Positions 41,932 to 64,000 of a DNA stretch of 64,000 nucleotides are shown here, one piece after another. A program made the position numbers and the translations under genes. The stretch is taken from positions 102,407-166,406 of the forward strand of contig JAFVGZ010000018.1 of NCBI GenBank assembly GCA_017478025.1, given 5' to 3'. Each line of letters starts with the position of its first letter. Position 1 is the stretch's first letter. The notes under the pieces were generated by a model. That model was not told the DNA's origin and did not search any database. It saw only the letters and a list, made by a program, of their open reading frames with translations. This stretch comes from Prevotella sp. (GTDB taxonomy: Bacteria; Bacteroidota; Bacteroidia; Bacteroidales; Bacteroidaceae).

Positions 41932-42017
41932 GTACAATTTACAATTTACGATGTACAATTTACGATGTACCGCTCGGCACTCTGTGACGCTTGCGTAACA
42001 AAGTGGAGCAAGAATTT
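41932..42017 (+). repeat. Interspersed repeat copy A with GTACAAT/TTACAAT flank
   Basis: A 51-bp core at 41967-42017 (GTACCGCTCGGCACTCTGTG then ACGCTTGCGTAACAAAGTGG, then AGCAAGAATTT) is nearly identical to copies at 49427, 63755, 63818 and 63911. It is flanked by TACAATTTACGATG heptamers. It lies in the 111-bp spacer between the two permease genes. Confidence 0.9.
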
Positions 42018-51220: not shown

Positions 51221-51249
51221 GACTTGTTTGTGTATATCAAATAAAGAAG

Positions 51250-51297
51250 ATCAGGGGACTCTTCGGTCATCTCAGAGTGATCAGGGAACCGTCCCCT
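51250..51297. repeat. Left direct repeat of the restriction island, with internal hairpin
   Basis: CGGTCATCT...GATCAGGGAACCGTCCCCT at 51264-51297 matches 61280-61313 at 29 of 34 positions, and the preceding ATCAGGGG is also shared. GATCAGGGGAC (51249-51259) and GTCCCCTGATC (51291-51301) additionally form an 11-bp stem that could end the operon transcript. Confidence 0.7.
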
Positions 51298-51309: not shown

Positions 51310-51972
51310 CTAACGGTTACTGCTGAAACATTCAACCTCATGCAGCTGTTGGGCTACTTTTAGGAAATTCGCAAAATGCAAGCCCCATTGGTTGTAAACA
51401 GTTAACCTTGTGCCATCAGATAGGGTTATTAAGTCTTCTGGTTCCAAGAAGAATCGTTTAAGAAGATCGGGCTTATTTTGCAGTTTCTGCTGAATATCTT
51501 CATACGGTCTGAATACACCATGAAGAGAACTTCCACTCAATGAATCGGGAAATCGTTCTTTAAGTTGCTCGTAAGTAATACCTGGATGTCCTTCCACGTA
51601 TTTTCTAACCACGGCTAGTACAAACCTTCTTTTCTTCAAAGGCTCACCACCATCAATCGAATACTTGGAAGTGTCTCTTGTTGAGACTGAATCTGAGTCT
51701 TCGTTGAATGAAATGGACTTTATGTTTGTCTGTTCAATAAGTTGTATGTTCAGGCCTTCACTCTTATCAAATGTCACTTTCATCAAGAGTTTGCCCCTTA
51801 ATTTCGCGACAAAAGGTTCCAATTCCTGTTTCAGATGTGGTATAATTTCATCCCGTAGGTATTCTTTTTCAAGTTTGGCCACACCGTTCAGTTGCTCATC
51901 GCTAACAGGTAGGTTCAGAGCTTTAAGCATTTCGATTGCTTCGTATGCCTTTTTCAATAGTTCTACATCCAT
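51310..51972 (-). CDS. Accessory protein of the restriction island, paralogue 1
   Basis: 220 aa, last gene of the operon. Residues 1-85 (KKAYEAIEMLKALNLPVSDE, KLEKEYLRDEIIPHLKQELE, KVTFDKSEGLNI) align closely with the gene just upstream. The C-terminal half is unrelated to that neighbour: FVLAVVRKYVEGHPGITYEQ, LKERFPDSLSGSSLHGVF, then EDLITLSDGTRLTVYNQWGL. I have a vague memory of this last pattern from restriction-linked proteins but cannot name it. No catalytic motif is evident. A DNA-reading or sensing role is only a guess. Confidence 0.85.
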   Translation of the reverse strand: MDVELLKKAYEAIEMLKALNLPVSDEQLNGVAKLEKEYLRDEIIPHLKQELEPFVAKLRGKLLMKVTFDKSEGLNIQLIEQTNIKSISFNEDSDSVSTRDTSKYSIDGGEPLKKRRFVLAVVRKYVEGHPGITYEQLKERFPDSLSGSSLHGVFRPYEDIQQKLQNKPDLLKRFFLEPEDLITLSDGTRLTVYNQWGLHFANFLKVAQQLHEVECFSSNR

Positions 51973-51976
51973 GGTA

Positions 51977-52576
51977 CTACAGCATTTGTTTTTCTAATTT
52001 CAAACCAAGATTTAAACAACGATTGATGGTTTTTATTTGGTCATACTTAGTGTCTGTTGATGAATAGGTACAGACATATAGGCCTGGTTCAATTTCTTTC
52101 TGCCCAACCCTATACCTTTCATTCTCATGCAGCTTGTTTGAGACGAGATTCCCACCCATTATAGTAATCCCAAGTTGTTGCACTCTGCTCGGGCCAGCAT
52201 AACGAATAACATCCATTAGCGTTTCCCATACGGTTTTATTACACGAAACGTGGTTATCAGGAAACAATACGCGTATGATGTATTTTCGCTGTCGTTTTGC
52301 TGGCTGTTCGCTTGCAAATATCTGCGGTTGAATCTTAGGTCGGTCCACCAAAGAGATATCCACGCCATTCTCTTTCGAATAGGTCACTTCAAGTTCAAAC
52401 TTGTTTCTCATCTTTCCAACCATAGATTGCAGTTCCTGCTCAAAGAGTGGAATAATCTCTTCACGTACATAATCCTTTTCCAACCGAGAAATTATTGCCT
52501 TTTGCTCAGGGCTTATAGGAATATCTATTGACTTCAGCAAATCAACTGCCTCATATGCTTTATCAAGTTTCTCCAT
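51977..52576 (-). CDS. Accessory protein of the restriction island, paralogue 2
   Basis: 199 aa. The N-terminal 85 residues (DKAYEAVDLLKSIDIPISPE, RLEKDYVREEIIPLFEQELQ, EVTYSKENGVDISLVDR) match paralogue 1. The C-terminus differs: YIIRVLFPDNHVSCNKTVWE, TLMDVIRYAGPSRVQQLGI, YVCTYSSTDTKYDQIKTINR. Only four bases separate it from paralogue 1 and seven from the HerA gene upstream. Unknown function; one scaffold carrying two different effector ends is the simplest reading. Confidence 0.85.
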   Translation of the reverse strand: MEKLDKAYEAVDLLKSIDIPISPEQKAIISRLEKDYVREEIIPLFEQELQSMVGKMRNKFELEVTYSKENGVDISLVDRPKIQPQIFASEQPAKRQRKYIIRVLFPDNHVSCNKTVWETLMDVIRYAGPSRVQQLGITIMGGNLVSNKLHENERYRVGQKEIEPGLYVCTYSSTDTKYDQIKTINRCLNLGLKLEKQML

Positions 52577-52583
52577 ACCTATT

Positions 52584-54182
52584 CTATATTAAATGTGTAA
52601 CTTTTATCTTCTGCCAAGGTTTGCCTATACCAAGTGCCATATTCGCAGAATCCCTTGTAATGAGTTCTCCTTTTTGCAATCCAGCTATGGCCTGTTTGAG
52701 GTCTTGGAGAGATGAACCTGAAACACCAAACAAATCCTTTATCACGCTGTCGTTCTGCTGTTGCTGCTTCATTATAAGTGGGTATTGTGCATTTGCATAG
52801 AAGTCAAAGTACTTACTCTTGAAGCTTTCCATGTTCTGGGTGGCAAGAATGATGCTCATACCCTTATTGCGACCAACAGCAATAAGCTCACGCAGAGGAC
52901 GGTTATCAAAGTCAAGCATATAGTGAGCCTCATCGATTATAGTAAAGTGCCTCAGTTCAACACGCTCTTCATTCTTTTTCTGGGGTGGCAATGTCTCGTA
53001 GATGTTGTTTAGCTTTGATACCACGAAATACACAATAGCCTTTGCCATTGCGCCATCCTTTGGGAAGCGTCCCAGATTTATGATATAACTGTTGCTCAGC
53101 AAGTCAATCTTGTCCTCATCATCAAATATATTGTTATTGACCAACTGAGTCAATACAGATGTGATGCTGTCATTCTTGTCTTGTTGCTTGTCCGGAAGTA
53201 AATCTCGGTAGCACTCCAAGATTTCAGTAAAGGTAACAGGTTTGAATCTCTTGTCCTTATATGCATTTACAATTGCCGTACTCAAACGGCTATCCATATT
53301 TGCACTAATACTTGTGCGACTTATGGAGCCCAAGGCTGATGATAGTTCTGTAGCATATAGATTCACTTCGTTAATGGGTTTGCCTGTAAAGTCCTTAAAC
53401 GGAGTGAAAGGTAGTGGGCGTTCAATAGGGTTAAGTATTGCCTTTCGATTCGTATTAAACAATTGGAGCCATTGTTCGTGCTGGGGGTCTGAAAACTCTC
53501 CCTTATAGTCAAATAACAAGAAGTTTATGGGATAGTGACTATCGCCTGACAATTCCCTGATTTGGTTTATAAGAACTGCAAGAAGATTTGATTTGCCCGA
53601 ACCTGTCGTACCGGCAATAAGTATCTGCGTGTTTGTAATGCCCTTACTGTTCATGTCTAAGTATGCAGGCATGTCATTTTCATACATACCGATATGAAGA
53701 TTCAATTCTGGAATGTCGCCAATTGCTCCGCCGTTGTTCTTGGGCGCAAACAACAACCAGTCTTCAATACCGCCTCCCTTAAGCAATATCTCTCGACCGC
53801 GCAATATCTCTCTGCCTATTACGCGAGCCACAAATGATGGACTCCCCCAATCACCCTCTACATCGTGATATCTTAACTTCAGTAAAGCCTCGAAAAGCTT
53901 TCCTACGTCTGCTTTTGAAAAGAAAGTGGTAGGGTAAGGCGTATTATCCACAGGCATATTCAGACTCATGACATCCTCCACACTACGATTGCTTCTATCA
54001 CATAGGCCGGCAAAGAGACACAGACGTAGAGGAATACTCATGTTCATTCTTACAGGGCCAACGCCTTCAGAATAATCATTCAAGTCAATATGATTGCGCA
54101 GAGATGCTATCACATCCTGCATCTGGTCATGCATTCCACGAATGGAAGGAATTCCGTTTAGAACAACTTTACTTACATTCAT
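52584..54182 (-). CDS. HerA/FtsK-like ATPase with a DndE-like N-terminal domain
   Basis: 532 aa. Residues about 175-500 are a HerA-type hexameric ATPase: Walker A GTTGSGKSN at 191-199, Walker B FTIIDEAHYML with D417-E418, AVGRNKGMSIILATQN (sensor and arginine region), and a C-terminal Ile. Residues about 20-105 (GPVRMNMSIPLRLCLFAGL, TTFFSKADVGKLFEALLKL) resemble DndE, a small DNA-binding protein of phosphorothioation systems; this part is a judgement by eye. DptH of Dnd restriction is also HerA-like. It probably translocates DNA as part of the complex encoded by the operon. Confidence 0.85.
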   Translation of the reverse strand: MNVSKVVLNGIPSIRGMHDQMQDVIASLRNHIDLNDYSEGVGPVRMNMSIPLRLCLFAGLCDRSNRSVEDVMSLNMPVDNTPYPTTFFSKADVGKLFEALLKLRYHDVEGDWGSPSFVARVIGREILRGREILLKGGGIEDWLLFAPKNNGGAIGDIPELNLHIGMYENDMPAYLDMNSKGITNTQILIAGTTGSGKSNLLAVLINQIRELSGDSHYPINFLLFDYKGEFSDPQHEQWLQLFNTNRKAILNPIERPLPFTPFKDFTGKPINEVNLYATELSSALGSISRTSISANMDSRLSTAIVNAYKDKRFKPVTFTEILECYRDLLPDKQQDKNDSITSVLTQLVNNNIFDDEDKIDLLSNSYIINLGRFPKDGAMAKAIVYFVVSKLNNIYETLPPQKKNEERVELRHFTIIDEAHYMLDFDNRPLRELIAVGRNKGMSIILATQNMESFKSKYFDFYANAQYPLIMKQQQQNDSVIKDLFGVSGSSLQDLKQAIAGLQKGELITRDSANMALGIGKPWQKIKVTHLI

Positions 54183-54198
54183 AACTACCTCTATGTCT

Positions 54199-56244
54199 TT
54201 AGTCCTCTGTTTTTAGTCCAAAATAATCCTCTGTGATAACGGTACATTGCTGCTCTGGGTCACGATGCAATGTGAATGTCTTGGCCACATGAGCCTGAAT
54301 CTTCTTAAAGTCAAGTTCTGTGGTTATCTCCGTGTCTGTGCTCAACAATATAGTTTGGTGAGACAGGTTGGGGAAATACTCCTCAAGAATCACTTCACGG
54401 CTCTTCTTGTCAAGGACACCCATCACAGTATCAATAATAACCGGTGGGTTATAATCCCCCAGTTCATACAATACTTTTAGCAGAACTTGCATGACTGTCT
54501 GCTTGGCACCGGCATTCAGCTGGCTAAGAAATATCTCGTTACCATTCTTATGATAAATCTTGAAGGTAATGCCCTTACTGCCGTCACCGGTCAATTCCAC
54601 CTTGCCAATCATATCCTTATATATAATAAGGTTGATATTAAGGAGTTCACGCATTCGCCTCTCTATGTTAGTCTTCTTGTCTGCAAACAATTTATTATAT
54701 ACTGTTGCGAAGAACTTTGGAAGACGTTTGAGTGTCTCATATTGGGGATCTGGAACCTGCGGGATGTCGAAGTCATATTTCTTGATTTCCTTGTCAAAAC
54801 CATCTATCTCTGTCTTTGCTTGCTCCTTTTCCTCCTTCAGGTTTTTTATGCGCTTCATTTTGTTCTCATACAATTCCAGGAAAGAATAATCTTTACTTCC
54901 TAATTGGTGGCGCAATTCTTCCAATTGCTCATGTTTGCGTGGAAGATCCTTTTGCTCTTCATTCAGCCTTTCACGTTCTCTGTCAAGGGCAACAAATGGA
55001 TTACTATAATTACCCATAGCAACTCGCTCCAGTTCCTTGATGTCCCTTTCGCCAAGATTAGCAAAACGGTCTTTCACCGCCTGCCCTTTGTCTTGTTGCT
55101 CAATCACCACACGGGCTAAAGCATTGGTATCGATATTTGCTGTAACACCATACTTCTCCTGAAGAATTGCTACGATATCCTTGGTCAGTTTCTCTATCTG
55201 TTCTTTCCCTAATTGTATTCCGCGTGCATTTGCGATTGCCCTCTTTTCGCTTAGGATAACTTCTACTTCATCCTTGATGAGATTAGCTATTTTGGGATAG
55301 AGCACATTCACCTCTAAGTCAGCCACCAAGCTATTCATGTCTTGCACATATTTCTTCTCGGCATTATAATAGGTCTTCAGCGCGTCATTCAGCTTCACTA
55401 TTTGAGCCTGTGTTACCTCGTCAGCGGTATGGCCTTCCTGAAGCTGGTCATACTCGTCACGATGCTCGTTGACGTAGTTGATGAGTTCATTGTATTCGTT
55501 GTCCAGCCCCTGGAGGTATTCTTTCTTCTGATTGCGATCCTGAATGAGTTTCGCATATGCATTCCGTTTATCTTCATCAGCCATACGTTCCGCTGTCTTC
55601 TCTGAGAGCAGCACGTCGGCCACATCTTGAAGTGCCTTGTATTTTCCAAGCCCCATTACCATGTTGATATTATCGGTAATGAGTTGGCTCAGTTCACTCG
55701 TCTGAACAAGCTTGCCTGTCTGCATGGCATCAAACAAGAAATACTGACTCAACTCCTGAGGCAGGTTAGCACCTATTATCTTGTTTATGACATTCATGTT
55801 TTGGGCCCTCTGAGCAGCTGTCGAACCTGAACCATAGACAAATCTGTTGCCATCCATGTTCAGCTCCACGCTCTCAACGACATTGTCATCCATCAGTTTA
55901 TATGCACGACGCAGCTTGTATTGAACCTGTCTGTTCAACACTCGTCCCTCAAAGGTTATCTCTAACACTATCATCTTGTCCTTCATGCCAGAGGACACCA
56001 TCTCTCCGGCATTGAACAGCTCGATGAACTGTGCCTTGGTCAGTTTCTTGTTATTGGCTTTGCGTCCCTTTCCCGTATCAAGTCCGTATAGGGCGTGATA
56101 GATGGCATCAAAAAGCGTGGTCTTACCACAACCGTTCATACCACCAATAAGAATGATGGGACGCTCCTCGTCACAGCCTTCCAGATTGAGGTCCAGGCGA
56201 CGATAGGTCTTGTAGTTCTCAGCGTATATGCGTTTTATTTCCAT
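54199..56244 (-). CDS. DndD-like SMC/Rad50-type ATPase
   Basis: 681 aa. Walker A GGMNGCGKTT at residues 34-43 is in an N-terminal half-domain (AENYKTYRRLDLNLEG). Long charged coiled coils occupy about 200-530. The C-terminal half has signature LNAGAKQT (576-583), Walker B VIIDTVMGVLDKKSR and HQTILLSTDTEI. The DTxxGxLD and LLSTDTEI blocks are those of DndD. In the signature the usual Glu or other polar residue before K/RQ is Ala580. DndD is an ATPase in phosphorothioation; here no sulfur-transfer genes accompany it. Sixteen bases separate it from the HerA gene. Confidence 0.88.
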   Translation of the reverse strand: MEIKRIYAENYKTYRRLDLNLEGCDEERPIILIGGMNGCGKTTLFDAIYHALYGLDTGKGRKANNKKLTKAQFIELFNAGEMVSSGMKDKMIVLEITFEGRVLNRQVQYKLRRAYKLMDDNVVESVELNMDGNRFVYGSGSTAAQRAQNMNVINKIIGANLPQELSQYFLFDAMQTGKLVQTSELSQLITDNINMVMGLGKYKALQDVADVLLSEKTAERMADEDKRNAYAKLIQDRNQKKEYLQGLDNEYNELINYVNEHRDEYDQLQEGHTADEVTQAQIVKLNDALKTYYNAEKKYVQDMNSLVADLEVNVLYPKIANLIKDEVEVILSEKRAIANARGIQLGKEQIEKLTKDIVAILQEKYGVTANIDTNALARVVIEQQDKGQAVKDRFANLGERDIKELERVAMGNYSNPFVALDRERERLNEEQKDLPRKHEQLEELRHQLGSKDYSFLELYENKMKRIKNLKEEKEQAKTEIDGFDKEIKKYDFDIPQVPDPQYETLKRLPKFFATVYNKLFADKKTNIERRMRELLNINLIIYKDMIGKVELTGDGSKGITFKIYHKNGNEIFLSQLNAGAKQTVMQVLLKVLYELGDYNPPVIIDTVMGVLDKKSREVILEEYFPNLSHQTILLSTDTEITTELDFKKIQAHVAKTFTLHRDPEQQCTVITEDYFGLKTED

Positions 56245-56247
56245 AGC

Positions 56248-56466
56248 CTATATCTTTTTTAGAGCATTCTTGATAATCTGGCGTATTGTCCTGTCTTCAA
56301 CTACACCTTGATCGTTGCCGCCCTCATTGTATGATTTAAGGATTTCATCTTTCACCCAATCAGGGCTAAGCTGAAAATCAGTACTCGTACATAAGTTCTC
56401 GATAATATTCATGTCAGATGTACGTATTCCATAGTGAAGGAAAGTAGAATCAATAGATTTCTTCAT
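56248..56466 (-). CDS. Small protein of the restriction island, 72 aa
   Basis: It starts MKKSIDSTFLHYGIRTSDMN and ends RTIRQIIKNALKKI. Predominantly helical and acidic in the middle; no motif recognised. It fits snugly between the helicase (13 bp) and the DndD-like gene (3 bp), so it is a real operon member. I recall a short family annotated as a DNA-modification-system-associated small protein and this may belong to it, unverified. Possibly a subunit or adaptor. Confidence 0.8.
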   Translation of the reverse strand: MKKSIDSTFLHYGIRTSDMNIIENLCTSTDFQLSPDWVKDEILKSYNEGGNDQGVVEDRTIRQIIKNALKKI

Positions 56467-56479
56467 TATTATTAGGTTT

Positions 56480-58846
56480 TTACAGTTTACTCAATTCCAG
56501 TCGTGTCCAGCCCTCTGTGCTGTCTATATTGTCAACAAGGCCATCGGGGAAATACCAGTTCTCGCCCTCCTGTATCAGTACTCCGCCATACATTCTCACA
56601 CCTTGATTGCGATAAGTCAGGACAAACTCATACAAGGCGTTATTCTTTTCTTTGCCGTTTTCATCGCTGCCATGAGTCTTGGTATCAAACAATAGGATGG
56701 TGCCGTTCTTCATCCTGATGATGAAGTCCACATAGAAGCAGCGTTTCCTGCCGTCTTGCGAGGTGTAGGGCACAGCAAAGTGTTGCTTGCCCTCATCACC
56801 GTTCTTATACCACCAGTCCACAACTTCTCGTTGCTCGTCTATCCAGCGGGCAAACTTATGTTCTGGTATCGACACATTCTTCTGCTCGAAATAGGGAGTC
56901 AAGGCATGATTGTATATCTCGCCATAACGACTCACGTTCTTTTCCGAATTATATATACGGGTCTCAGGTACTTCCCATACAAACGTCTTATAGTCAGCAT
57001 CATTGTTGCTGTCACCATTCCCCTGCTGGCTTAACAGCGCGGAATATCTAATCAATGCCTTGCGAATCAAATCTTCGAAGTGAGGACGGTTCTTGTGATA
57101 GAGCACTACCTTTGGCACATCCATAGAGAATATCTGCAGATAGTCCTCCAAGGCTTTCTCTATGGCGCCCTTCAATACTGGTGTACTGTCGTGCTTGGCA
57201 AAAGAACCCACATTCTTTCGGCAGAACAACGTAAAGAGATTATCAAGCTCTGAGGCATTCAGCGCTATTCGCGCCTTATCCACTACCTCCACTCTCCCGC
57301 TTTCGCCTGTCAATGGAGTGTCCTTCGGAATAACAACAAAGATACGTGCCACATCTGTCGTTATGCCATGCTTCTTGGCATTGTGGCGGTTTCTTACCAG
57401 TTTGGCTTCCATTTCAGCCTCATTGGGCGCGTTATCATCCATTTCATCATCATCCCCAAAGAAATCTTCTTCACTAAACAAAAGCATGGGATTCTGCTCC
57501 CATTCCATCTCCATCATCTTCAAGAATACAGCACGGAAATCAGCACCTAAACGGTTCCTTCGTTTGCCATTCTTGTCCTGATAGACACTACGCAGCGTGA
57601 TGGGGGTAAACTCCTTACGACGATTGGCAAAAATGGTACTCAGATAATTCATGTCATCGCCGACTATCTGAATAATATCTTCTGAAAGGTTAGTATATAC
57701 ATATCCATAATTCAACCTGTCATCGTGATAGAAGCGCTGTTCCGGCATACGCAGGATTCGTCCTACGGTCTGAGTGGTAAAAGTCATACTCTTTAGCTCT
57801 CTGAATATCAGCAATACAGAGGCGCGTGGACAATCCCAACCCAATGCAATGGCCTGTTTGAAGAGCAAAACCTCTGTCATATCATCATCCTTTGTGATGT
57901 TTTCGAGATTTGGGGACTTGTCTTTCGATAGCCAAACTGCCAATCTACCATTCTCAACGGATATATCACACATTTCAGAAAGATACGCTTTCATTTCCTC
58001 GGCGATTGTCTTTTCTTCGTTTGAAAGGGTGTCGCTCGAGTCATTGGGCAACTGAATCAGTAAAAGTGGGTTAATACCATATTCAGCGTATGCCTTGGCC
58101 AGTTCTTCGCGTTTTCTCAAAGCTTTTACCAACAGTTGCTGATTTACGGTAAGCAAGGACTGGGTATTGCTGGAGTTGACATTAGGATTCAGCTCTACGC
58201 CTTTCTTTATCATCTCCTCTTCTATCACGTCTTTTCGTCTTACCTCCACACCGTGAAAACTCATCGATACAGGCGTAGCAGAGATACGCAATTCTATCTT
58301 GGGATTGATACTCTTGAGCACCTTCTCACTTTTCGTGGCGTTGCGGCCACCAAACATGTGCTCCTCGTCAATAACCGCCACGATAGGCACATTGTTCTGG
58401 ATACGAGTACGACGTAGTAACTCAAACAAAGTCCTGTTTTGCTCATTGTCGCGAATCATCACGGCATTGTCCTTGTTGATGCTCTCCCAGTTCAGGAAAA
58501 GCACATCCCCTTGTTGCAAGCCCTCCAGATGGTCACATTCGTCAAACATCACAGGTCTCAGAGAACGAGTCTCGCTAAAGAAATTCCTCATCGAGCGATA
58601 GCTCTGCTGATGCAGCTTGTTCGGAGCTATCCACACCCAAGCCACACGGGTATAGACGCAATCACCACTCACGGGCAACTCCTGTGTCAGTTCGTCAAGC
58701 AAAGCAGAGGCCATCACAGTTTTACCGCTGCCTGTCGGAGCCTTGAATACTAACTTCTGGCGGTCATCATCCTGATTGAGCATGTCAATCATCTTCTGTT
58801 TCAGTTCCCTGACAGCTCGTTTCTGATAATCTTTCAGTACTATCAT
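56480..58846 (-). CDS. Type III-like restriction subunit: SF2 helicase with PD-(D/E)XK nuclease
   Basis: 788 aa. Helicase motifs: Walker A FKAPTGSGKTVMASALLDEL near residue 34, DEEH in AVIDEEHMFGG, SATPVSMSF (motif III region), and QTVGRILRMPEQRF (motif VI). Near the C-terminus FYVDFIIRM and LLFDTKTHG give D707...D721-x-K723, a plausible PD-(D/E)XK nuclease like that of type III Res subunits. The start overlaps the methyltransferase stop by ATGA, the coupling seen in mod-res pairs. It cleaves or translocates DNA under control of the Mod subunit and perhaps the ATPases. Confidence 0.9.
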   Translation of the reverse strand: MIVLKDYQKRAVRELKQKMIDMLNQDDDRQKLVFKAPTGSGKTVMASALLDELTQELPVSGDCVYTRVAWVWIAPNKLHQQSYRSMRNFFSETRSLRPVMFDECDHLEGLQQGDVLFLNWESINKDNAVMIRDNEQNRTLFELLRRTRIQNNVPIVAVIDEEHMFGGRNATKSEKVLKSINPKIELRISATPVSMSFHGVEVRRKDVIEEEMIKKGVELNPNVNSSNTQSLLTVNQQLLVKALRKREELAKAYAEYGINPLLLIQLPNDSSDTLSNEEKTIAEEMKAYLSEMCDISVENGRLAVWLSKDKSPNLENITKDDDMTEVLLFKQAIALGWDCPRASVLLIFRELKSMTFTTQTVGRILRMPEQRFYHDDRLNYGYVYTNLSEDIIQIVGDDMNYLSTIFANRRKEFTPITLRSVYQDKNGKRRNRLGADFRAVFLKMMEMEWEQNPMLLFSEEDFFGDDDEMDDNAPNEAEMEAKLVRNRHNAKKHGITTDVARIFVVIPKDTPLTGESGRVEVVDKARIALNASELDNLFTLFCRKNVGSFAKHDSTPVLKGAIEKALEDYLQIFSMDVPKVVLYHKNRPHFEDLIRKALIRYSALLSQQGNGDSNNDADYKTFVWEVPETRIYNSEKNVSRYGEIYNHALTPYFEQKNVSIPEHKFARWIDEQREVVDWWYKNGDEGKQHFAVPYTSQDGRKRCFYVDFIIRMKNGTILLFDTKTHGSDENGKEKNNALYEFVLTYRNQGVRMYGGVLIQEGENWYFPDGLVDNIDSTEGWTRLELSKL

Positions 58847-60777
58847 GCCTCGCCTCCTTCCTTCTCTTTATACGAGTATTGTGCAGCATCTGTCAATACT
58901 TCTTCCTGCTCTTCCTCACTCAAAACTATTTCAATCGGCTGAACTTTCTTACGCTTCGGCAACACTCTTCTATATGTCTTGTAAATGGCATCAGGCAGAG
59001 CGCAGAGCGTTACTTTGTTGAGAACATCCTTAAAATCATCGTCGTATGCATACCTGCCCTCGCTAAAGACATAGATCTTGATAAACTCTTTCTCTTCCCA
59101 GGCTTTCAGTTCTTCTACTATGTATTTAATGACAGCAGGCTCATATATAATAATCATTTCCTTGCTGTCTTCAGAGAATCTTCGGGCAAAGTTCTTTCTA
59201 AGTGTCTTTCCGTTACATACTATCTTAGTCTCTTGGTACATATTTTCCTTTATACAAAGCAAATCAGTAGCAGCCTTTACCAACTCCCGCATATTCTTCT
59301 GCGTCCTGTCACGAGAGATAAAGTCCGTTTTGTAGTAGCGCAGGGTGTTGGCTTTCAAAGAATTTATATTATCACCAAATCCTAATATTACCCTACTGTT
59401 TCGGACATAGGTAACATTTTCACATATATTATTTTCGTTATTAGATATTGAAATGCATTGTCGTTTTCCCTTATCACTTTCATTGAGTAGCATAGTTGCA
59501 TGCATTGTAGTTCCACTACCTGCAAAAAAATCCAGAATTATAGATTCTTTATTTATTGCTGAAATTTGAAGAATGTCTTTAATCAAATCTAATGGTTTGG
59601 GATTGTTAAATAGTCTTTCCAAGCCTAACGTCTTTAATTGCTCTGTTCCATTACCGCTACTATATTGGGGTTTATATAAGGTACTTTTTGGCTTTTTAGA
59701 CGGCAAATCACCTAATTCTGGACGCTGTTTCTTATACAAAGAAAAATTGCCTAATGTTCCAGTAACGATAATTTCATGAAGATTATTTTTAACAGTAGAC
59801 CATTGCCATCTCCATGACATCTCCATCCCATTTGTGATAGGCAAAAGTATTGTATAGCCGATTTTTCTATAATGCTCAGCGATTTGCTTCATTATTAAAT
59901 CATCGTGTTCATAGTTTCTGGTATGTGAATTTAAAAATTCTTCTTCAGTTATTGTGGAAACTTTTAATGTTTTATTGTCAATAAGAATAGGATAATAAAG
60001 GTTAGGGCGTTTAGTTCTAGGGGCATTAACACCTGTACTTTTAAGATTAGCACCTTTTTTGTAATAGCCTATTGAATCTATTTCCCATTCGAGTAAATCA
60101 TCTTCTTCTACATTGAGCGCACCTAATGTACAAGTTTGTTTGTTTCGTGAATAAGCAATTGTGTATTCATGAGTACCAGCAAACCCGAATTCATCTTGAT
60201 TTCCTTTTAAATTCATAATTGTAGGTAAATTTCCCAAGATGTTATTCTCTCCAAAAATACTATCACACAACAACTTCAAATTCGCCTGCTCATTATCATC
60301 AATAGAAATAAAGATAACACCCTTGTCACTCAGCAGTTTTTTGGCAATCTTCAATCGCTTGTTCATAAACGAGAGCCACTTGCTGTGACGGTATGAGTCT
60401 TCTGTATCCACAAACGAGTCGTTATAGACAAAGTCCTTATTGCCCGTATTATATGGCGGATCGATGTAGATGACATCAATCTTACCCTCATGCGTATAGC
60501 TAAGGGCGGTAAGAGCCTCAAGGTTGTCACCCTCAATCAAAATATGATTGGGGGCATCCAGCTCTTTGCTCAATATCGCCTTGTCCTTTACCTCACGAAG
60601 CACGGGAAGTTCATCACGCAGACGTTCCTCCACATCTTCTGGTTTGTCTTCCCATACAAGTCCATACTTCTTGTGTTCACGCAGTAGCCCAATAAGACTA
60701 CTACGCTCGTCAACGGTAAGACCCGCTAAGGTTTGCAACTTGCTGATAAGTTCAGCCTTATCTATACGCCTACTCAT
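58843..60777 (-). CDS. Type III-like Mod subunit, beta-class DNA adenine methyltransferase
   Basis: 644 aa from ATG 60777 (MSRRIDKAELISKLQTLAGL); an ATG at 60930 would add 51 implausible residues. The catalytic motif DPPYNTGN is at 106-113 and the SAM site FAGSGTT at 418-424, an order that marks the beta class. Between them lies the target-recognition region, which is visibly AT-rich (line 59941-60000 is 14/60 G+C, against 30/60 for 60601-60660 and 26/60 for 59041-59100). It methylates adenine in a specific site to protect self DNA. First gene of the seven-gene operon. Confidence 0.92.
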   Translation of the reverse strand: MSRRIDKAELISKLQTLAGLTVDERSSLIGLLREHKKYGLVWEDKPEDVEERLRDELPVLREVKDKAILSKELDAPNHILIEGDNLEALTALSYTHEGKIDVIYIDPPYNTGNKDFVYNDSFVDTEDSYRHSKWLSFMNKRLKIAKKLLSDKGVIFISIDDNEQANLKLLCDSIFGENNILGNLPTIMNLKGNQDEFGFAGTHEYTIAYSRNKQTCTLGALNVEEDDLLEWEIDSIGYYKKGANLKSTGVNAPRTKRPNLYYPILIDNKTLKVSTITEEEFLNSHTRNYEHDDLIMKQIAEHYRKIGYTILLPITNGMEMSWRWQWSTVKNNLHEIIVTGTLGNFSLYKKQRPELGDLPSKKPKSTLYKPQYSSGNGTEQLKTLGLERLFNNPKPLDLIKDILQISAINKESIILDFFAGSGTTMHATMLLNESDKGKRQCISISNNENNICENVTYVRNSRVILGFGDNINSLKANTLRYYKTDFISRDRTQKNMRELVKAATDLLCIKENMYQETKIVCNGKTLRKNFARRFSEDSKEMIIIYEPAVIKYIVEELKAWEEKEFIKIYVFSEGRYAYDDDFKDVLNKVTLCALPDAIYKTYRRVLPKRKKVQPIEIVLSEEEQEEVLTDAAQYSYKEKEGGEA

Positions 60778-61181
60778 AGCCGCACCCTCCCAACTTGAAA
60801 CGTGGTAAATGAAACATGAAACCACATGGGGGTACGACGAAGAGAGACAGATTCTAGTTTTAGATACTTCATAACCGGCCAGTTTTTTAGTACTAAATGA
60901 ATTCTGTTTAGGTTGTCTGCCAGAGCACAAAGAAGCGTACCCACTCCTTACGATTCCTGTGCTGAGGGAGAAACTGGCCGGTTAAACCCTTCTATGCGAA
61001 ACCTTCAGGAATGAATACGCCATAACGGCGCATCCTCTTCCTGAGATTATGCATAGAAATACTTGGCCAGTTTTTATCAGCACAAAATCTCAGTCATAAG
61101 ACACGACTATCTTTTTCCAGCAAAAATTTGCATCGCAGCCTTCCCTCCCATCAGAGTTCAGTTAACGCCACAATGCACCTG
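60778..61181 (-). promoter_or_regulatory. 400-nt leader of the restriction operon with mutually exclusive inverted repeats
   Basis: Three related elements occur. On the plus strand they are GGCCAGTTT at 61065-61073, AAACTGGCCGGTT at 60971-60983 and AACCGGCCAGTTT at 60873-60885. The middle one can pair with either neighbour: 9 bp with the first, 13 bp with the last. The alternative hairpins enclose different short reading frames. This looks like an attenuator or RNA switch; it could also be a repeated protein-binding site. Confidence 0.5.
60992..61054 (-). CDS. Possible 20-aa leader peptide
   Basis: ATG 61054 to TAG encodes 20 residues beginning MHNLRKRMRRYGVFIPEGF. It sits in the leader of the restriction operon, inside the alternative hairpin formed by the first two GGCCAGT elements. 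The codons look non-random (Arg-rich helix then VFIPEG), but so short a frame may be a remnant of an older gene. After the stop the same frame continues for 30 codons to another stop. Confidence 0.3.
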   Translation of the reverse strand: MHNLRKRMRRYGVFIPEGFA

Positions 61182-61212
61182 CAAAGGTACGAATTACTTT
61201 TCAATTATCCAA
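61182..61212 (-). promoter_or_regulatory. Promoter of the restriction operon
   Basis: On the minus strand TTG (61212-61210), 20 bp, TACCTTTG (61189-61182): an exact fit to the Bacteroidetes pattern. It lies inside the right-hand direct repeat boundary and points towards the methyltransferase gene. Confidence 0.75.
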
Positions 61213-61267
61213 AACAAGCCCCCAAAAATTAATGTTTTTTTGGGGGGAATCTGGACACATGGCAAAA

Positions 61268-61313
61268 ATCAGGGGGCGCCGGTCATCTATGAGAGATCAG
61301 AGAATCGTCCCCT
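61268..61313. repeat. Right direct repeat of the restriction island
   Basis: ATCAGGGG then CGGTCATCT...GATCAGAGAATCGTCCCCT matches 51250-51297 in the same orientation (29 of 34 positions over 61280-61313). The two copies enclose about 10 kb: operon, leader and promoter. Confidence 0.7.
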
Positions 61314-61534: not shown

Positions 61535-61777
61535 GCAACACGCTGATTATCTGACCGTTACAAAGCTCGCAATCGGCATATTTCTTAATGCAAAGTTACA
61601 AAATTATTCTGAATTATTCAGGATTTTGAAAAAAAAGTTTGCACTTTTCAAAATATATACACCTATTTTGATTTATATCATTGTCTTTCTGTTATTTAAG
61701 TCTTTTTAGATATACACCTATAACTACACTAAGCCTACACTAGATATACACTAGACCTACACCTGGTCGAATTGGCA

Positions 61778-61823
61778 AATTCTTGCTCCAATACTTTACG
61801 CAAGCGTCACAAAGTGCCGAGCG
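61778..61823 (-). repeat. Interspersed repeat copy C, inverted and diverged
   Basis: AAATTCTTGCTCCAATACTT TACGCAAGCGTCAC...GTGCCGAGCG is the reverse complement of the family core with a few changes. It lies inside the long inverted repeat. Confidence 0.8.
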
Positions 61824-61829
61824 AACGAG

Positions 61830-61893
61830 TTAACAAATTAACGAATTAACAAATTAATAAATTAACGAATTAACAAATTAACAAATTAACAAA
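61830..61893 (+). repeat. Octanucleotide tract, eight TTAACAAA-like units
   Basis: Eight consecutive 8-bp units: TTAACAAA with TTAACGAA and TTAATAAA variants. The unit is the rotated reverse complement of TTAATTTG at 14623-14662. Confidence 0.93.
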
Positions 61894-61923
61894 TTGCCTG
61901 ACGAGTCTTGCCTGGCTACAGGC

Positions 61924-61982
61924 GAAGTTACTTACAAGCGTTACCGAAGTTACTTACAAGCGTTGCCGAAGTTACTTGCACA
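61924..61982 (+). repeat. 22-bp tandem repeat, 2.7 copies
   Basis: GAAGTTACTTACAAGCGTTA CC begins at 61924, 61946 and 61968; the third copy is partial (GAAGTTACTTGCACA). The unit overlaps in theme with GAGTAACTT/AAGTTACTC modules elsewhere. Confidence 0.9.
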
Positions 61983-62269
61983 CGCATCCAAAGTGGCTGA
62001 CATCAGGTGTATATTAGGTGTAGGTCTAGTGTAGGCTTAGTGTAGTTATAGGTGTAGGGTAAAATAGAGTTATTCCGTTTATATTCATGTGGTTACGCGA
62101 TTTCTTGTGTATATCTGACGAAAACTATGCTTAAAATTTTTTTTCTCTCACACTGAAAACATGGGGATTTGTCGTAAACGTAGAAGCTCTCGAAATCCAT
62201 AATTTACGAAATAATTGTGAATATATGCGTGGGTTTCACGGATTTTTTGTAATTTCGCAGCGCAGATAG

Positions 62270-63757: not shown

Positions 63758-63961
63758 CCGCTCGGCACTCTGTAACGCTTGCGTAACAAAGTGGAGCAAG
63801 AATTTGCTATTTACCATGTACCGCTCGGCACTCCGTGACGCTTGCGTAACAAAGTGGAGCATTTAGAGCCCCTTAATAAGGGGCGGCTATAATGCAGGGA
63901 TTTTTACCATGTACCGCTCGGCACTCCGTGACGCTTGCGTAACAAAGTGGAGCAAGAATTT
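63755..63961 (+). repeat. Three interspersed repeat copies in 207 bp (D, E, F)
   Basis: Cores start at 63755, 63818 and 63911, each beginning GTACCGCTCGGCACTC and reading on to AACAAAGTGGAGC. D has CTCTGTAACGC, E and F CTCCGTGACGC. Between E and F is GCCCCTTAATAAGGGGC, a separate palindrome. After F, GTGCCGAGCG (63967-63976) is a partial inverted piece, and the window ends in AATAGTC heptamers. Confidence 0.92.
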
Positions 63962-64000
63962 GCTATGTGCCGAGCGATAAATAGTCAATAGTCAATAGTC

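Follow-up and report, generated by a model that had tools for sequence, protein, structure and literature searches.

What do DndD- and DndE-type proteins do in an operon that carries a DNA methyltransferase and in which no gene for sulfur transfer is recognised? This question is raised by a locus in Prevotella sp. (assembly GCA_017478025.1, contig JAFVGZ010000018.1), which we analysed within a window, the whole 64,000-nucleotide stretch at positions 102,407–166,406 of the forward strand. Seven open reading frames (ORFs) stand head to tail on its minus strand at window positions 51310–60777, with intergenic gaps of at most 16 base pairs (bp) and a 4-bp overlap of Mod and Res. They encode a methyltransferase (Mod), a helicase-nuclease (Res), a small protein (SP), a DndD-like ATPase, a HerA protein with a DndE-like N-terminal domain (DndE::HerA) and two accessory proteins, X and Y; we call the first five the core, and SP, DndD-like and DndE::HerA the trio. 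A preliminary description, made from the sequence alone, had seen seven tightly spaced minus-strand genes combining Mod/Res with DndD-like and DndE-HerA proteins; both points hold, the first by the ORFs themselves and the second by motif and profile matches, and its end point, 61212, lies in non-coding DNA 5' of Mod. We propose, at a probability of about 0.5, that the Mod-Res pair and the trio cooperate, such that a type III-like restriction pair would be joined to a portable DNA-capture machine with no say in where methylation falls. The operon is probably a horizontally acquired five-gene defence core with cargo, laid out as follows.

58843–60777, minus strand: Mod, type III-like beta-class N6-adenine DNA methyltransferase, 644 amino acids (aa), ATG at 60777
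59623–60234, minus strand: hypervariable target-recognition region of Mod, about residues 182–385
56480–58846, minus strand: Res, superfamily 2 (SF2) helicase with C-terminal PD-(D/E)XK-type motif, 788 aa
56248–56466, minus strand: SP, small protein of the PF20306 Sp-DndD family, 72 aa
54199–56244, minus strand: DndD-clade ABC ATPase with coiled coil and no CxC hook, 681 aa
52584–54182, minus strand: HerA protein, whole ORF, about 532 residues
53733–54182, minus strand: N-terminal part of the HerA protein, about residues 1–150, a divergent DndE-like domain by profile-profile comparison
52584–53732, minus strand: HerA/FtsK ATPase domain, about residues 151–532 (Walker A G191–K197, D417/E418, R438, Q449)
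51977–52576, minus strand: X, accessory protein with shared N-terminal domain and X-type C-terminal module, 199 aa
51310–51972, minus strand: Y, accessory protein with shared N-terminal domain and Y-type C-terminal module, 220 aa

Conservation and distribution of the five-gene core

Scanning genomes with the HerA alignment gave 184 confirmed relatives, of which we analysed the best 80; full-length filters left 62 Mod, 63 Res, 69 DndD-like and 80 HerA sequences, window included. Nearly all of these loci (77 of 80) are titled Bacteroidota, the others being an Ignavibacteriales metagenome-assembled genome (MAG; L123), an Alphaproteobacteria MAG that is possibly misbinned (L087) and an uncultured bacterium (L100), where L and G numbers denote loci and genomes. 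The gene order Mod-Res-SP-DndD-HerA recurs among them, with cargo in between in some, and among loci long enough to show the respective gene none lacks SP (72 of 72) or Res (71 of 71) and a single one lacks Mod (61 of 62), namely L067, with no Mod within 1.6 kilobases (kb) upstream. SP starts at most 25 bp from Res, or overlaps it, in 51 of 70 scored loci. Cultured carriers include Flavobacterium granuli DSM 19729 (L099) and Phocaeicola coprophilus DSM 18228 (L108). Split ORFs that look broken affect DndD in L091, L095 and L119, Res in L060 and L091, and Mod in L093 and L109. Of the seven-gene co-occurrence that had been anticipated, the part concerning the five core genes stands and the part concerning X and Y does not (23 of 80 loci). 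The distribution is patchy: of 393 genomes in the order, 5 have a DndD relative scoring more than 245 bits, and of 395 in the phylum, 3 have a HerA relative scoring more than 690 bits, two of the three being scattered trios described below.

The lack of DndC that had been remarked on holds for the window's own assembly, where no match was found (84.68% complete), and of 36 carrier genomes a single one has a DndC that passes the cut-off, as part of a DndC-DndD-DndE/HerA operon distinct from the system described here, with weak partial matches of 19–29 bits in three more. Because many of these 36 carriers are MAGs, such absence is not proof. On these counts we rejected phosphorothioation with a hidden DndC. 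In the genome of L089, a DndC-DndD-DndE/HerA operon with a TIGR03183 match (L156) coexists with the full system.

Mobile carriers did not come to light: there was no megablast match in the phage collection, none of 190 pattern matches in viral contigs was confirmed, and 28 plasmid records with DndD relatives were all below 60% identity, none of the 14 opened having the gene set. These plasmid relatives are annotated ‘DNA sulfur modification protein DndD’. Some individual loci are unusual in themselves. Pontibacter arcticus (NZ_QMDV01000006.1) has two copies about 74 kb apart on one contig (L115 and L117), by duplication or assembly repeat, with identical DndD, HerA, Res and Mod proteins; L034:6274-10300 (G356) is an apparently decaying copy, with DndD and HerA each in two ORFs and a C-terminal remnant only of Res; and L037:10425-12891 encodes a 760-aa protein, matching the RNA polymerase alpha C-terminal and the sigma-70 region 4 families, that lies, together with a 64-aa protein, beside DndD and DndE-HerA, with no DndC recognised there.

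Assignment of the core proteins

Mod matched PADLOC MTase_III (8.1e-89) and Pfam N6_N4_Mtase (1.5e-35), and its family profile matched EcoP15I Mod (4zcf, 4.8e-72) and 6k0w (1.2e-85) in the PDB. Its motifs follow beta-class order, DPPYNTG and then FAGSGT, both at least 95% conserved in the 62 sequences, while residues 182–385 or so show the lowest conservation of the protein except for the C-terminal tail; this is the type III arrangement of a beta-class N6-methyladenine (m6A) Mod with a variable central recognition domain. Res, which matched Pfam ResIII at 64 bits and PADLOC REase_III at 1.5e-17, is at least 95% conserved (63 sequences) at A36–T43 except position 40, at D160-E161-x-H163 and at D707/D721/K723. 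We read D707…D721-x-K723, as a motif, as a putative C-terminal PD-(D/E)XK nuclease, a reading helped by the match of residues 662–746 to an NCBIfam restriction endonuclease model (1.7e-6), and no match to the phospholipase-D family of HKD nucleases appeared in Pfam up to E 0.1. By motif conservation and the ResIII and REase_III matches, Res has the type III layout of an SF2 helicase with a C-terminal PD-(D/E)XK.

The 72-aa SP, present as described but previously left unexplained, can be assigned to the Sp-DndD family (PF20306) on the evidence of its relatives. This family, described in Pfam as a small protein of certain Dnd DNA modification systems, was matched at E ≤ 1 by 48 of 50 SP relatives (best 4.5e-12). 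The window SP alone matched it at 0.12, weaker than its match to HU_inhibitor (0.038), a family also weakly matched by 42 of the 50 relatives (best 7e-4). The relation of the ATPase to DndD that had been suggested is borne out by PADLOC matches to DndD (6.7e-66) and PbeC (1.4e-56); against the DndD equivalog TIGR03185 it scored 192 bits, under the cut-off of 245.85, and so falls outside the equivalog. The coil lacks a CxC or CxxC in 68 of 69 DndD-like family members, while the controls L131 (CxC) and L128 (CxxC) each have one, and we rejected membership in the CxC/Pbe clade for want of this hook. In a quick tree with long branches, the Mod/Res-linked DndD copies and those of G673 and G665 form one clade (support 100), which a long stem sets off from the remaining DndD rows and the two CxC rows, the G673 and G665 copies nesting inside the Mod/Res-linked ones.

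Assignment of the HerA ATPase domain draws on matches to Pfam DUF87 (5.4e-12) and PADLOC DndH (5.2e-27), a family-profile match to DptH 7es4 (8.7e-17), and invariance in 55 sequences of Walker A G191–K197 (192 excepted), D417/E418, R438 and Q449. Its N-terminus is more divergent. The window protein had no match to Pfam DndE, which was also not among the 25 of 61 families listed for the 55 HerA relatives, the last of these having 6 members, so that at most 6 relatives could match DndE; the same model matched 10 of 10 DndE-HerA fusions of a related set (A7) at E ≤ 1, the best of them at 1.3e-21. When the profile of the entire HerA family was set against five DndE sequences, the match was weak (probability 2.8%, E 0.016), and comparison of the N-terminal 160 residues with ten DndE sequences plus eleven fusion N-termini gave a score of 30 over 127 columns (E 1.2e-5, probability 60%). 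Controls for that score stayed at or below 7.8 for 30 column shuffles, 3.2 for a reversed profile and at or below 8.6 for seven unrelated alignments, and the N-terminus scored 20 against DndE alone and 17 against the fusions alone. The DndE relation claimed earlier therefore survives as a remote one, and this profile comparison suggests that the HerA N-terminus is a divergent DndE domain.

Exchange of the Mod recognition region

We compared the recognition region with its surroundings in 13 non-overlapping closest pairs of loci, whose DndD proteins are 0.77–0.99 identical and from which the near-copies L117 and L090 were left out. Recognition regions in these pairs were 0.12–0.44 identical, and in 11 of the 13 they fell at or under the 95th percentile (0.30) of 874 unrelated pairs, whose mean was 0.21. 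With L117 and L090 included, 44 of 46 pairs with DndD identity of at least 0.75 had a recognition region below 0.45, pairs that share loci and so are not independent; the two exceptions, L115/L117 and L088/L090, stood at 1.00. Individual pairs illustrate the exchange: L082 and L089 are 99% identical in DndD and Res and 97% in the DndE domain, with a recognition region at 17%; L071 and L074 have a 100% identical DndE domain and a recognition region at 18%; and in L063/L113 the exchanged block in Mod is flanked by DNA matching at 87% and 96%. The converse occurs in L075/L099, where 94% of the recognition region is common and DndD just 51% identical, and recognition regions are more than 50% identical in 30 pairs. 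Between the window and L044, DNA homology starts at the Mod/Res junction.

Across identity distances of 55 loci, which underlie all correlations given here, the recognition region correlated at 0.08–0.12 with Res, DndD and HerA (values matched or exceeded in 1, 3 and 17 of 999 permutations) and at 0.29 with the rest of Mod. Recognition cassette exchange has been reported for modA alleles in the part of PMC3311624 covered. Our alignments indicate that recognition cassettes move between these systems as well, and that the DndE domain need not follow. Against this, DndE does differ within some pairs (L098/L106, 0.58; L064/L065, 0.75). An exchanged recognition region beside an unchanged DndE domain makes it improbable that DndE determines methylation specificity in this branch; a proposal in print has variable DndE reflecting differing target sites (Rakesh, Aravind and Krishnan 2024, PMC10853773, drawn on here and below for parts of its text). 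Low guanine-plus-cytosine (GC) content of Mod as a general mark of recent exchange was rejected, Mod being the lowest-GC gene in 29 of 54 loci.

The trio as a coevolving block

Distances within the trio are strongly correlated (SP-DndD 0.89; DndD-HerA domain 0.92; DndD-DndE domain 0.88; lowest, SP-DndE domain, 0.77), compared with 0.52–0.58 for Mod-Res, 0.45–0.56 for Res-trio and 0.35–0.42 for Mod-trio, and every correlation between catalytic parts beat all 999 permutations. The trio thus appears as one tightly coevolving block, with Mod as its loosest partner. Related trios lie directly after DndC in L127 and L189, where the annotation reads DndC, small protein, DndD and FtsK; the alignment of the L127 small protein with the window SP family was unconvincing. 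As these trios follow DndC, the trio looks portable.

Weighing cooperation against independence

In the cooperation that we favour, Mod would methylate its own site (m6A) and mark self, and Res would cut unmethylated DNA. The trio would capture DNA: the coiled-coil ATPase and the DndE domain would grip it, HerA would act as the pump and SP would control how the machine assembles. This machine would not choose the methylation site and, engaged with DNA found unmethylated by Mod/Res, would help to present or move that DNA, gating or feeding Res. No sulfur chemistry would be involved. We infer this cooperation; in its favour stand the conserved order of the five genes with SP close to Res, the conserved motifs of Mod, Res and both ATPases, the scarcity of DndC matches among carrier genomes, the trio block, the exchange of the recognition region and the trios that follow DndC. 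The preliminary description had the Dnd machines coupled to methylation, which is upheld as far as co-occurrence is conserved and is weakened by a trio that forms its own block and occurs without Res in two whole genomes. With Mod having its own recognition region besides, the trio would not simply be a DndC-style engine with new chemistry.

A number of observations weigh against cooperation. The correlation of Res with the trio nearly equals that with Mod, so that Mod and Res form no tight block, and both have been exchanged relative to the trio, as for independent modules (L110/L116: DndD 0.91, Res 0.53). The recognition region keeps its small correlation of 0.08–0.12 with the rest of the system, and at 0.001 no PDB chain of a type III Res was matched by the Res profile. 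Each half also occurs without the other. The assembly of G174 holds a close Mod-Res pair (L209, Res 970 bits) and no DndD or SP, on a contig that ends 56 bp after Res, and L210 (G016) resembles it but has a Res split in two. Conversely, G128 has SP-DndD-HerA in the window's order and no Res relative (L032, on G128:C217, 6376 bases); 113-aa and 365-aa ORFs precede SP in place of Res, and the best Res match in the genome is 44 bits. In G673 and G665 the SP, DndD and HerA genes are spread over three contigs, each with unrelated neighbours, and a search of each whole genome found no Res relative.

Other occurrences complete this picture. A further close Mod-Res pair, L208 (Res 1124 bits), has no trio adjoining, in a genome (G021) that also has a full system, and its Res nests inside the linked clade of a quick Res tree with long branches; L211 and L216 are more distant Mod-Res pairs (Res 534 and 332 bits, the L211 Mod in two ORFs), and L212 and L213 have other neighbours. 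Among 10 genomes of a distant family of the same phylum, 5 carry both SP and HerA (one HerA being a fragment where its contig ends) and 5 carry neither. DndD adjoins HerA in G821, with SP elsewhere, and lies near a cut HerA in G822. No Mod/Res was called in the stretches around the trio genes of G673, G665 and G820–G822, Res having been sought genome-wide in G673 and G665 only and Mod in none. Trio loci apart from Mod/Res are L157, L158, L163, L164, L226, L227, L228 and L229 (G673, G665, G821).

Trios without a Res relative make serious the main rival to cooperation, namely that one operon houses two independent defences, a type III-like restriction-modification (R-M) system and a methylation-blind SP-DndD-DndE/HerA machine directed at invading DNA such as plasmids and replicating phage DNA. 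Such independence, a doubtful but by no means negligible prospect in our estimate, would fit the SP and HerA genes that are present or absent together in the distant family, the scattered trio genes of G673 and G665 with no Res found in either genome, the G128 trio, the G174 Mod-Res pair and the trio's own coevolution block. A hitch-hiker would nevertheless be expected beside many other systems, whereas the trio follows Res in all 71 evaluable loci, and the lone Mod-Res pair L208 could use the trio of the full system in its genome. A further reading, that SP-DndD-DndE::HerA is a self-sufficient DNA-sensing and pumping complex that has no part in choosing the marked site, is recruited by DndC in phosphorothioation systems or by an m6A type III-like pair here, and stands alone as three dispersed genes in one genus, we advance tentatively.

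The trio might instead act on the modification side, loading or licensing Mod as DndD and DndE do with DndC, so that methylation would need it. DndD and DndE do act in modification in Dnd systems (in the parts of PMC10853773 covered), and related trios directly follow DndC in L127 and L189, but Mod, with its motifs complete and a recognition region of its own, shows the weakest coevolution with the trio (0.35–0.42) and stands in G174 as a close Mod-Res pair with no DndD or SP in the assembly, and we think this unlikely. Less credible still is an ordinary type III R-M system whose trio has no defence role and serves DNA repair or partition: the DndD and HerA proteins do match Rad50- and HerA-type repair models weakly, against which stand the patchy distribution of DndD relatives (5 of 393 order genomes), the low GC, the flanking repeats and the defence-type cargo. 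That this is a phosphorothioation system borrowing its sulfur-transfer protein from elsewhere in the genome seems barely tenable, even though related plasmid proteins carry the DndD sulfur modification annotation and housekeeping desulfurases may replace DndA (PMC10853773, same parts); no DndC was found in the 84.68% complete assembly, nor over cut-off in more than 1 of the 36 carriers, many of them MAGs.

Comparison with known systems

The pairing of a Dnd-type core with a base methylase has precedents in print. DndD/DndE-type cores that pair with base methylases have been described for the CxC clade and cytosine methylases, as CxC ABC-ATPase/DndE (PbeABCD) systems comprising DndD/CxC-DndE cores, helicase-HKD nucleases, small proteins and cytosine methylases, and the same source, in the parts covered, suggests that the core is able to recruit other modifications and notes, for some phosphorothioation systems, a HerA-fused DndE next to an ATPase related to DndD (PMC10853773). 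Like PbeABCD as set out there, the window operon combines an SF2 helicase-nuclease, a small protein, a coiled-coil ABC ATPase and a DndE-like domain with, as in some PbeABCD cases, a DNA methylase; unlike it, the ATPase has no CxC hook and lies outside the two CxC tree rows, the nuclease motif is PD-(D/E)XK-type and not HKD, the methylase is type III-like m6A, and the DndE-like domain is fused to HerA. The combination of a type III-like m6A Mod/Res and a HerA-fused system of the DndD clade was not found in the literature searched, including those parts of PMC10853773; in the passages covered, PMC12839542 and PMC12707154 deal with related HerA and Dnd systems and do not contain it, and PMC5608340, PMC8569181 and PMC11514479 have no bearing on it. 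The new evidence here is recognition-region exchange and the dispersed trio.

DndC-linked operons (L127 Aureimonas, L189 Burkholderia, L036, L038–L042, L156) likewise have DndD and a HerA-fused DndE, and L127 and L189 also an adjacent ‘DNA modification system-associated small protein’. They differ from the window in carrying DndC (annotated in L127 and L189, by TIGR03183 in L156, by eye in the others), with TusA in L127; no Mod/Res was called in them, and HerA in L035–L043 is 23–29% identical to the window's in the aligned part. With type III R-M systems such as EcoP15I and Mbo45V the operon shares the Mod family, motif order and variable recognition domain, and a Res made of an SF2 helicase and a C-terminal nuclease-type motif; it differs in having three extra conserved genes and a Res that was unmatched to a type III Res PDB chain at 0.001. 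Type III R-M is a two-gene system in which Mod and Res suffice, and its cleavage needs two inversely oriented unmethylated sites. As in DndFGH and HerA-FtsK capture systems, the HerA domain is related to the DndH C-terminus (5.2e-27; DptH 7es4), although here it is fused to a DndE-like domain, and no DndF or DndG model was among the PADLOC matches listed for the seven proteins (the best 25 being listed for two of them).

Accessory genes and variable cargo

X and Y had been taken for paralogues, which is right for their first ~95 aa and not for their C-terminal parts, which differ. Searches with X gave nothing in PADLOC, Pfam and NCBIfam at the thresholds applied, and the C-terminal part of Y matched the PADLOC candidates PDC-S57 (9.4e-8) and PDC-S11 (2.9e-4). 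The X/Y family comprises 39 proteins in 23 of 80 loci, with a common ~95-aa N-terminal domain and differing C-terminal parts; of ten proteins tested, one has topoisomerase C-terminal repeats and the rest gave no convincing match, while a single protein in L092 aligns with the N-domain and with both the X-type and Y-type modules. X-family matches occur elsewhere in the order in 7 genomes besides the source, of 247. X-family relatives beside other large proteins (L178:8487-9128 and L180:8506-9498) suggest that X/Y are not confined to this operon. At 23 of 80 loci, X/Y as part of the conserved core was rejected; they look like exchangeable cargo outside it, and might act as variable sensors, readers, regulators or back-up effectors.

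Cargo genes also vary after Mod or Res (32 ORFs, some maybe spurious, as may apply to those between Mod and Res in L048, L049 and L051) and after HerA. By Pfam, nine cargo proteins are Abi_2, RhuM (two), DUF1016/YhcG nuclease (two), GmrSD, AAA_15/DUF3696, Schlafen AlbA_2 and antitoxin-like.

Flanking repeats and island signature

Three further features frame the operon.

51247–51297, plus strand: flanking direct repeat, left copy, 12 bp past the stop of Y
61265–61313, plus strand: right copy of the flanking direct repeat, 487 bp 5' of Mod
60872–60984, no strand assigned: 14-bp perfect inverted repeat (60872–60885 and 60971–60984) upstream of Mod, a possible regulatory element

The direct repeats (49–51 bp) align over 51 columns at 80% identity, with an E value of 8.9e-7 for the window. 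Their 19-bp core occurs mismatch-free in the window only at these two copies, and in 3 of 233 loci examined, all three being pieces of the window's own genome. GC content is 42.0% in the operon, 51–52% in the three preceding stretches of the window and 55% in the next gene. Because of this low GC and the flanking direct repeat, the operon looks like an acquired island of about 10 kb; an empty insertion site was not readable, the flanking polymerase gene having only distant relatives (26–31% identity) in 4 sister genomes. Beyond the right repeat, the window has ~53-bp inverted repeats (61713–61765 and 62004–62056, within 61700–62060) and a 40–55 bp element at 61769–61823, with relatives near 42017, 49485 and 63759–63963.

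Implications

What DndD and DndE contribute to phosphorothioation is not settled, and this operon offers a sulfur-free setting for the core's own function, that is, holding, pumping and gating of cleavage; the genus with the scattered trio is a second test case for it. An annotation as ‘DNA sulfur modification protein DndD’ need not mean phosphorothioate. If the trio is self-sufficient, the DndD/DndE core would be a general capture machine, with target choice in this branch lying wholly with the swappable Mod. These observations suggest that Dnd-type motors are a reusable machine able to work beside different DNA marks.

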